Origin: an uncultured Clostridia bacterium
GTDB taxonomy: Bacteria; Bacillota; Clostridia; TANB77; CAG-465
Reading direction: 5' to 3'
Assembly (NCBI GenBank): GCA_947626975.1
Contig: CANQUF010000008.1
Location: 1-46,642, forward strand
Length of the DNA: 46,642 bases
Shown: one piece after another, positions 27,393 through 29,689 of the stretch
Position numbering within the stretch: the first letter of the stretch is position 1
Layout of the letters: every line of letters begins with the position of its first letter
Position numbers and translations under genes: made by a program
Notes under the pieces: model-generated
What the model was told of the DNA's origin: nothing
What the model saw: only the letters and a program-made list of their open reading frames with translations
The model's database searches: none

Positions 27393-27448
27393 TTGTTTAT
27401 TAAAAGGAGATAAATAAGGTTGAAAAATAATATAGAAAAAAGCCCACG

Positions 27449-27479
27449 AAAAAAGAGCGTTAATGTATACAAGAACGCT
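27449..27479 (-). terminator. Terminator-like hairpin after the transposase gene
   Basis: On the minus strand AGCGTT ... AACGCT is followed by CTTTTTTC. An overlapping hairpin AGAAC/GTTCT could compete with it. Confidence 0.5.
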
Positions 27480-27516
27480 TGTTCTAAGAATATTAAATTA
27501 ATACCAAACAATAAAA

Positions 27517-28758
27517 TTAACTAACTTTGTAACCTTGAGATTCTAAAAACTTAATAGCATTATTGATATTTAGTTTTTTATCTTTTGTTTTAAAGTTTTT
27601 TTGAGTTAATTGCTCATAAATTTCGTGATTAAAAGGTTCATTTTTAGATAATATGTAATAAATGCAAGTAAGTAACATTCTAGCAATAGCTATAATTGCA
27701 CGTTTATGACCTCTACGTTTTTTAATTGCTTCATATCTAAGTTTAAAGTAAGGACATTGTTTGTCACGAACAGCATTATTAGCACATTGAATAAGTAATG
27801 GCTTTAAGTAAATACCAGCTCTACTAATATGTACAGACTTCTTTTTACCTGCACTTTCATTACACTGAGGAGTAAGACCAGCCCAAGAGCAAAGATGTTC
27901 AGCATCTTTAAAAACAGACATATCTGCTCCAATTTCAGAAAGTATACTAATAGCAGAAATATCTTTTACTCCAGGAACAGTTAAAATTAAATTGATTTGA
28001 TTTTGATAAGGTAAAGTTAAAGGTAAAATAGCTTTTTCAATATCGTTAATGCAGTTAATAATATTATCATAATGATTAAGACAAACTTTCATTTTAGAGT
28101 TTTGCTCATGAGAAATATTCCCCTCAATAGAATCCAAAATTTCTTGAGGAGAGGCTTTTAAATTCTTTTTAAGAAGAGGAGTAATATCTTGAATAGAAAC
28201 ATTGCTATCTTTAGATAACATTAATTCTAAAATGGATTTAGAAGTTTTACCAAAAGTATCAGTAATAACATTAGAAATGGTAATATTAGAAACAGTAAGA
28301 GAATTTTGAAATCTGTTCTTTTCAGAGCTTTTGCAATTAACCAACTTAAAACGATAGCGCATTAAATCACGAAGTTGACGAATATCAAGAGGTGGCATAA
28401 AACTGCCTTGAACTAGACCATGTTTAAAAATATCAGTTATCCAAACAGAGTCTTTAGTATCGGTTTTTTTGCCACTTATGGCTTTAACATATTTAGGATG
28501 AGTAATAGTAACATTACAAGAATCTTCTAAAATGTTAAAAATAGGAATCCAATACTTACCAGTAGATTCCATACACACATCTTTGCAATTGTTATCGATA
28601 AGCCATTGTTTAAGTTTTTTAATATCTTTAGTAAAAGTAGAAAATTGTTTTGTTTGGTATGTGGTAACTTTTTGTTCATTTGTAGTAGCAATAGTAGCAA
28701 CTAACACTTTTTTGTGAACATCAATACCACAGCATACATTGTAACAAATTTTAAGCAT
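27517..28758 (-). CDS. IS110-family transposase (DEDD recombinase)
   Basis: A 413-residue RNA-guided recombinase of the IS110 family. The N-terminal RuvC-like DEDD domain starts CCGIDVHKKVLVA (first Asp) and continues with CMESTGKYWIPI (Glu) and KKTDTKDSVWI (the paired Asp). The C-terminal Tnp domain has VPGVKDISAISILSEIG and the SWAGLTPQCNESAGK block with the catalytic-serine neighbourhood, then KKRRGHKRAIIAIARMLL. The track start at 28800 is upstream of the AGGAGG site; ATG 28758 lies seven bases after it. The frame is intact, so the element could be active. Confidence 0.93.
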   Translation of the reverse strand: MLKICYNVCCGIDVHKKVLVATIATTNEQKVTTYQTKQFSTFTKDIKKLKQWLIDNNCKDVCMESTGKYWIPIFNILEDSCNVTITHPKYVKAISGKKTDTKDSVWITDIFKHGLVQGSFMPPLDIRQLRDLMRYRFKLVNCKSSEKNRFQNSLTVSNITISNVITDTFGKTSKSILELMLSKDSNVSIQDITPLLKKNLKASPQEILDSIEGNISHEQNSKMKVCLNHYDNIINCINDIEKAILPLTLPYQNQINLILTVPGVKDISAISILSEIGADMSVFKDAEHLCSWAGLTPQCNESAGKKKSVHISRAGIYLKPLLIQCANNAVRDKQCPYFKLRYEAIKKRRGHKRAIIAIARMLLTCIYYILSKNEPFNHEIYEQLTQKNFKTKDKKLNINNAIKFLESQGYKVS

Positions 28759-28774
28759 TTTGTTACCTCCTGTA

Positions 28775-29005
28775 AAAAATAAAAAAAGATGTATAGACAT
28801 TTACTATGTGTACCCAGCTAGATTAACGGACTTTGTTAAATACAAAGATAAGGTTACGCACTCCACCTACAATAAAGTAGGATATGTTGCACTCATTTGT
28901 GCTTAAAAGGTACACGTCACATATAACTATACGGGATATAATTACAAAAAAGTGGTAATTATTCGCCACTCCTCCCAACGTGCTCTTCAGTCTATCTATA
29001 CATCT
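28775..29005 (-). ncRNA. Candidate bridge RNA in the IS110 leader
   Basis: In IS110-group elements the non-coding end upstream of the transposase encodes a bridge RNA with two loops that pair to target and donor DNA. Here about 230 nt lie between a consensus promoter and the transposase ribosome binding site. In minus-strand order they hold at least four stems: AGTGG/CCACT (28951-28970), GCAC/GTGC (28889-28902), CCTAC/GTAGG (28866-28881) and CTTTGT/ACAAAG (28831-28847). The size and place fit; the loop assignments and the exact ends are not determined. I did not attempt to match loops to the flanks. Confidence 0.65.
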
Positions 29006-29011
29006 AATAAC

Positions 29012-29040
29012 ATTATAACATATTATGGTAACAAAATCAA
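29012..29040 (-). promoter_or_regulatory. Promoter of the IS110 leader and transposase
   Basis: On the minus strand TTGATT, 17-bp spacer and perfect TATAAT; the predicted start is at about 29005, far upstream of the transposase, which leaves a long structured leader. Confidence 0.75.
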
Positions 29041-29066
29041 AGTAAAAATTTTTAATATAGATTTGT

Positions 29067-29094
29067 GCCTTCCGCAGACGAGCGAAGCGAAGGC
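29067..29094. repeat. GC-rich imperfect palindrome beside the IS110 element
   Basis: GCCTTC ... GAAGGC arms enclose GC-rich sequence (extra pairing GC/GC with one bulged C). The composition contrasts sharply with the AT-rich surroundings. It lies between the IS110 leader promoter and the scpB ribosome binding site. It may be a REP-like element, since several IS110 members target such hairpins, or part of the element's end. Confidence 0.45.
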
Positions 29095-29116
29095 AAGAAA
29101 GGAATGAGATTAAATT

Positions 29117-29689
29117 ATGGAAAATTTAGAAAATATAGTTGAAGCAGTTCTTTTTACTTTAGGAAGAGAAATATCAATTGATGAATTATCTAAAACTTTA
29201 GAAGAAGAAAAAGAAAAGATAGAAAATGCTATAACAAAAATAGCACAAAAGTATAATGGAAAATGTGGTATAAATTTAGTTAAAGTAAAGAATATGTATC
29301 AGCTTGTTACAAATAAAGATTATTATGAGTATGTAAATAGATTTATTGAAAATACTAAAAAACAAAATTTGTCTACTGCAGCGCTTGAAGTTTTAAGTAT
29401 TATTGCATACAACCCTAAAATAACTAAATCAGAAATTGAAAATATAAGAGGTGTAAATAGTGATTTTGCTGTAAATAAATTACTTGAATGCGGACTAGTG
29501 GAAGAAGTAGCAAGACTTAATCTACCAGGAAGACCAGCGGCTTATGCTGTTACTAATGAATTTTTAAGATCTTGTGGTATTAATGCTATAGATGAACTAC
29601 CAAAATTTGAAGAAATAAGGATAAAAGATGAGCAACTTCTTGTAAGCGATTTTGAAGAAAATAATAAAAATATAACTAGTGAGGAATAA
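29117..29689 (+). CDS. scpB: Segregation and condensation protein B (ScpB)
   Basis: ScpB is the winged-helix kite subunit of the SMC-ScpAB condensin. The 190-residue protein begins MENLENIVEAVLFTLGREIS, the family's typical opening, and has LSTAALEVLSIIAYNPKITK and IENIRGVNSDFAVNKLLECG, then GRPAAYAVTNEFLRSCGI in the second winged helix. An AAAGGA site precedes the ATG. Its usual partner scpA is not adjacent: upstream is the IS110 element on the opposite strand. addB follows almost immediately, so the two are cotranscribed. Confidence 0.95.
   Translation: MENLENIVEAVLFTLGREISIDELSKTLEEEKEKIENAITKIAQKYNGKCGINLVKVKNMYQLVTNKDYYEYVNRFIENTKKQNLSTAALEVLSIIAYNPKITKSEIENIRGVNSDFAVNKLLECGLVEEVARLNLPGRPAAYAVTNEFLRSCGINAIDELPKFEEIRIKDEQLLVSDFEENNKNITSEE

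Follow-up and report, generated by a model that had tools for sequence, protein, structure and literature searches.

How does an insertion sequence come to part a host gene's Shine-Dalgarno (SD) sequence from its start codon? The question is raised by a 46,642-nucleotide stretch of DNA, here called the window, which is one entire contig (CANQUF010000008.1) of a 1.15-Mb, AT-rich Clostridia genome from a metagenome (GCA_947626975.1). In it, the chromosome-segregation gene scpB has an IS110-family element inserted between its SD and its start codon. Judged from sequence comparisons, a bridge RNA encoded in the leader of the element very probably steers its recombinase to translation-initiation regions. 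The conserved folded RNA, the co-variation of its guides with insertion site and element end, the exact ends and the pre-insertion sites are established directly. We also think it likely, with somewhat less assurance, that the element belongs to a widespread IS110 clade of Firmicutes whose bridge RNA carries a split translation-initiation region in reversed guide order, the target loop having an SD mimic on one of its strands and the start codon with its 4-nt spacer on the opposite one, and that many gene starts are thereby programmable.

The element and its insertion site

The element and the host sequences around it are as follows.

27416-29112, minus strand: complete IS110-family element, 1,697 bp (ends from relatives in unrelated gene contexts, Enterococcus pre-insertion sites and the scpB leader of the closest relative)
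27517-28758, minus strand: recombinase/transposase open reading frame (ORF), 413 aa, with DEDD RuvC-like domain and Transposase_20 (ORF list, Pfam, IS621 alignment)
27402-27415, plus strand: host SD and spacer, AAAAGGAG-ATAAAT, the original scpB SD and right target (sequence, closest-relative leader, SD pairing)
29113-29119, no strand assigned: left target in host DNA, the scpB ATG plus 4 nt, CATAATT on the element strand, its last two bases TT being the core (pre-insertion sites, guide match, core comparison)
29117-29689, plus strand: host scpB-like gene, 190 aa, intact, severed from its own SD by the element (ORF list)
27416-27422, minus strand: left donor end CAACCTT with the shared core TT (sequence of the element end, core comparison)

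A first-pass annotation of the window had described an intact IS110 element at 27440-29045. This is confirmed: the insertion sequence is intact, belongs to the IS110 family, is present in a single copy and lies on the minus strand; its actual ends are 24 bp and 67 bp farther out. The transposase frame is whole, with 413 aa counted from the ATG behind AGGAGG; an alternative longer frame of 427 aa starts inside the RNA region. The protein matches both PF01548 (DEDD RuvC-like) and PF02371 (Transposase_20), and residues equivalent to IS621 E60, D102, D105 and S241 are retained in an alignment with 8wt6. The counterpart of IS621 D11 is probably the D of GIDVHK; the roles of the IS621 catalytic residues are those given in PMC11208158.

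Because no further copies were found in the host genome, the ends were fixed through relatives and pre-insertion sites and not through genomic copies. One scan of genome contigs gave 79 loci, mostly from Firmicutes, ten of them with 76-89% protein identity and the others mostly with about 45-58%. Plasmid relatives from Enterococcus, Lactococcus and Roseburia were added to this set. The leaders of close relatives align end to end while their neighbouring genes differ. IS110 elements from plasmids at 31-36% identity were tried as members and rejected; they are without the conserved RNA motif, and the finding is therefore not extended to them. One related element, L040, is found in a genome labelled Tannerellaceae (Bacteroidota), which suggests horizontal transfer or a binning error.

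The scpB leader of the closest relative (AAAAGGAGTTAAATGTATTATGG, L090) was set against the rejoined flanks of the window (AAAAGGAGATAAATAATTATGG) to fix the ends, and the original site reconstructed in this way, TTAAAAGGAGATAAAT joined to AATTATGGAAAAT, is near that relative's leader, AAAAAAGGAGTTAAATGTATTATGGAAAAT. The elements have a constant orientation: almost all left flanks end in a host gene's antisense start codon, and almost all right flanks open with an antisense SD. CAT was counted at 71 of the mapped left flanks and CAC at 2, although this count is not an independent test because the anchor rule demands CAN.

When Enterococcus flanks were rejoined and searched against a plasmid collection, pre-insertion sites were recovered without gain or loss in the traC plasmids of E. 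faecalis (CTTCATTTTT joined to ATCAACCTCC) and in E. raffinosus (CCATTTAT joined to CTTCCCTCC), where the gene start is annotated independently at this place. A third site (L116) agrees to within one base, and in C. hydrogenum the rejoined thl leader equals its uninterrupted homologue in length (CAT, 9 nt, CCTCC). According to these sites, insertion takes place between SD and ATG, at a distance of 4 nt from the start codon and with no target-site duplication. An initial left-end model, in which the element begins straight after CAT, was rejected since its rejoined targets were 4 bp shorter than the real pre-insertion sites. The core has 2 nt, mostly TT and in one group TA. Left target and right end finish with the same base, T or A, at 65 of 65 loci, in keeping with cleavage that follows a shared core, the situation in IS621 (PMC11208158). 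The right flank of one E. faecalis copy (L117, LR962562.1) has no SD; its plasmid has 5 places that match the transposase, so that this flank may stem from recombination between copies.

The folded leader

27416-29112 has a long left end of 354 nt and a right end of 101 nt, and the RNA lies inside the left end, as in the IS110 group. The features of the leader are these.

29012-29040, minus strand: promoter-like sequence for RNA and transposase, -35 TTGATT, 17 nt, -10 TATAAT (sequence; the -10 is conserved in relatives)
28781-29005, minus strand: predicted bridge RNA, about 225 nt, with a 13-bp closing stem and then U7 (folding, conservation in relatives, pair counts)
28909-28915, minus strand: donor-loop stem, 5' arm GUGUACC (stem pairing in relatives)
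28808-28814, minus strand: donor-loop stem, 3' arm GGUACAC (stem pairing in relatives)

The folded leader of about 230 nt that had been noticed between promoter and ribosome-binding site is borne out. There are about 234 nt between the expected RNA start and the SD of the transposase gene, and the leader folds at -60.7 kcal/mol (z = -3.2), more stable than 200 of 200 dinucleotide shuffles. A search of window and element against Rfam returned only a transfer-messenger RNA (tmRNA) elsewhere in the window and nothing credible in the leader.

Compensatory covariation of the RNA is strong across about 70 relatives, mostly Firmicutes, and the same RNA is still recognisable in distant ones. RNAalifold, given 24 distinct RNAs, predicts 22 pairs, 15 of them changed on both sides. 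For 26 named pairs in the same RNAs, 93.7% of cells are paired versus 77% after shuffling and 26-45% in slid registers; 17 of the 26 are changed on both sides, and none of 500 shuffles was as good by any measure. The closing helix by itself has both-side changes in 12 of its 13 pairs. The donor-loop stem, placed in shifted columns by the alignment, was counted separately by permuting its arms: 23 of 23 distinct versions pair throughout, versus 58% with permuted arms. Stems and guides were identified in the very data on which they were counted, and kinship among the sequences raises counts of this kind; given the size of the effect, chance is an unlikely cause of the pairing.

The element also has a left-end hairpin:

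29067-29094, minus strand: hairpin GCCTTC...GAAGGC (occurs near the left end of the relatives compared)

It sits between the terminal CATTCC and the ACAAAT motif and is kept in relatives with a differing sequence. Long subterminal inverted repeats were not recognised, and no end-to-end pair was found among the longest inverted repeats of the element.

Guides, sites and competing explanations

Three stretches of the RNA can be read as guides.

28925-28931, minus strand: left target guide UAUAGUU, 3' strand of the first loop (fixed-position guide/site comparison)
28970-28978, minus strand: right target guide UUGGGAGGA, SD-like, 5' strand of the first loop (SD-like 9-mer at the same place in relatives; pairing with the right flank)
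28850-28855, minus strand: left donor guide AACCUU in the second loop, equal to the right end AACCTT (guide/end co-variation)

The left target guide follows a conserved CCG (or similar) and has 7 nt of the form YAU-NNNN, whose counterpart is the CAT-NNNN of the element's own left flank. In the window, UAUAGUU fits the site CATAATT at 7 of 7 positions counting G-U pairs. Guides were read at this fixed position because a free scan of the upstream region, which we rejected, is too permissive in AT-rich DNA (cross-pairs averaged 6.1 of 7), and only the four spacer bases were scored, since CAT had placed the site. Of 29 distinct guides, 26 pair 4/4 over their own spacer; the mean is 3.79 for own sites versus 2.08 for foreign ones, and 0 of 100,000 permutations were as good. 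Rare spacers are matched as well (CATCATT, CATAGAT, CATGTTT, CATACTT). Two of the elements examined stand at GTG starts, and one of these, L043, has CACACTT with the matching guide CACACUU.

Among near-identical RNAs (L021-L025, L028-L037, L041, L075) the chief difference is the 4-nt spacer guide, which in almost every case fits the element's own site. Because the spacer guide differs even between such RNAs, it may evolve fast or be copied from the site.

On the right, almost all elements carry an SD-like 9-mer, for example GAAGGAGGA, TGGAGGTGA or GGAGGAGAA. Its mean contiguous pairing with the own right flank is 5.13 versus 3.63 for shuffled flanks, and the own guide beats permuted guides (p = 0.002). 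In the best cases, L061, L063 and L064 from Merdibacter, the SD pairing abuts the core, which equals a GGAGG-to-ATG spacing of 7 nt. The co-variation of target guides with the insertion site is strong on the left and weak on the right. In the second loop, 11 of 12 distinct 5-mer versions of the left donor guide, NNCU(U/A), are identical to the right end, NNCT(T/A); those of three close relatives and of L122 were read by eye.

These loops, fitting element end and insertion site, together with the covariation in relatives, support the bridge RNA that the first-pass annotation had proposed, and they do so on the two points, covariance and loop matches, on which that annotation had let its proposal depend. 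It had not seen what the guides contain, an SD plus a start codon, nor that the insertion falls between the SD and ATG of scpB. Its description of a new bridge RNA holds for a new member of the IS110 kind; the target class and the guide order are further new features.

We propose that the 3' strand of the first loop would pair with the bottom strand of the left target, over the start codon and the 4 nt preceding it. The 5' strand, whose sequence mimics an SD (for example GGGAGGAG or GGAGGUGA), would pair with the top strand of the right target, the one complementary to the SD. The guide in the second loop would pair with the right end of the element, and the recombinase would then join the excised circle to the target at the 2-nt core between SD and start codon. 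By analogy with IS621, the RNA would be made, be bound by the recombinase and direct the reaction, keeping hold of target and donor during strand exchange by the recombinase at the core.

Several observations weigh against this account. The right target guide is its weakest link, because the SD-like guide of the window pairs by only 4 consecutive Watson-Crick bases (GGAG) and the distance of the SD from the insertion point varies from 0 to 6 nt among elements. On the left, the guide of L040 matches 5/7 and those of L116 and L117 have one mismatch, and two related elements, L047 and L048, have the guides AACACUU and AAUUCUU without CAU and may therefore have left the start-codon target. A pairing search of the RNA against the terminal 12 nt of the left end did not find a right donor guide. 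The relatives come mostly from metagenome assemblies, and the permutation tests were made on distinct guides with the kinship among elements ignored.

A motif, AAGCACAAA, is common to the RNA and the left end: AAGCACAAAU in the donor loop (28892-28904) recurs in the left-end DNA as AAGGCACAAAT (29060-29071). Its variants change together in both places, namely CACAAC in Enterococcus and Lactococcus, CACAAACCAG in L026 and GGCAYC in L069 and L073. The motif is possibly the missing right donor guide, although its pairing partner would then be the bottom strand, at a distance of about 45 nt from the end.

The variable distance, and a right guide that matches its flank over 3-8 nt only, could also be explained if the leader is a bridge RNA and SD targeting is due to the protein or to the accessibility of gene starts, with the SD-like stretch of the RNA being structural or ribosome-bound; SD-like stretches are, after all, common. 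We consider this unlikely. The 4-nt spacer is no general signal, yet it matches the RNA element by element to a degree that no permutation reached, the own SD guide does better than permuted ones, and at the two GTG starts one element has the matching CAC guide.

A second explanation, that CAT and the next 4 nt belong to the element and that the RNA match is one to the donor and not to the target, is very improbable. Copies of one element in one genome do share the 7 nt (4/4 in C. hydrogenum, 8/8 for one Merdibacter element). However, CATTTTT and CATTTAT are already present in pre-insertion sites, one E. faecalis element shows CATATTT, CACTTTT and CATTTTT at different sites, the 7 nt include the start codons of different host genes, and the spacing in rejoined leaders is normal. 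That the folded leader is instead a cis-acting attenuator of transposase expression and no guide RNA is hardly credible: its 13-bp closing stem and seven U do resemble an intrinsic terminator between promoter and ORF, but co-variation with insertion site and right end is not expected of a regulator, and the two functions can coexist.

Known systems and meaning for host genes

A bridge RNA directing its recombinase to translation starts invites comparison with IS621 and the IS110 group (PMC11208160, PMC11208158), where the RNA holds target and donor during strand exchange at the core. As there, we find a DEDD RuvC plus Tnp-Ser recombinase, an RNA upstream of the gene, within the long left end, with two loops for target and donor, a 2-nt core and no target duplication. 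The target differs, being a repetitive extragenic palindromic (REP) sequence for IS621 and SD plus start codon here, and so does the core (CT there, TT/TA here). In IS621 the 5' strand of each loop addresses the left bottom strand and the 3' strand the right top; here the target loop is reversed (5' to right/top, 3' to left/bottom), the left donor guide has a 3' position in the donor loop, the two ends of the RNA are brought together by a long closing stem and the SD-to-core distance is flexible. The guide order, with the top-strand match 5' of the bottom-strand match, is that of the IS1111-group seekRNAs (PMC11187229), although their RNA lies downstream of the gene in elements with long subterminal inverted repeats.

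According to a passage in PMC8141618 citing Doran 1997, IS900 inserts at CATGNNNNNNTCTCCTT, that is, between start codon and SD. This element of a Mycobacterium avium subspecies is likewise of the IS110 family and sits in fixed orientation between SD and start codon, with CAT on the left and an antisense SD on the right. It differs in being actinobacterial and in having a long hed ORF across the whole element, whereas the opposite strand of ours has short ORFs only. One of these, at the right end (27415-27520, plus strand), has a TTG start behind the captured host SD and at most 34 codons; relatives have GTG or TTG frames of 10-15 codons. Such frames might be a remnant or analogue of the hed arrangement.

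The literature searched reports no guide RNA for IS900, and neither the IS621 paper nor the seekRNA paper mentions IS900 or SD targeting. A search for literature joining IS110, SD and insertion site found none, most subscription journals and preprints lying outside it. In the literature searched, then, translation starts as a target class and the reversed guide order are undescribed for bridge RNAs of the IS110 group.

The host tmRNA gene lies elsewhere in the window:

1987-2346, strand not stated: host tmRNA gene (Rfam RF00023)

For the host, scpB keeps its whole frame and now has its SD 1.7 kb away. The left end of the element has an SD-like sequence beside the junction (GGAATG or GGAGG), AAGGAATGAG here and GGAGG in Merdibacter, which may keep the host gene translated. 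Continued translation from it would make insertion before genes such as scpB tolerable. Insertion at the SD/ATG junction has technical interest too, since both SD and start codon are generic signals and the short spacer is the one specific part.

Taken together, guide, site and end can be read directly for about 29 natural guides, and relatives stand at gene starts in dozens of other bacteria. An RNA guide would offer an explanation for the old observation that IS900 and its relatives come to lie between a start codon and its ribosome-binding site; this explanation is testable by a swap of four bases.
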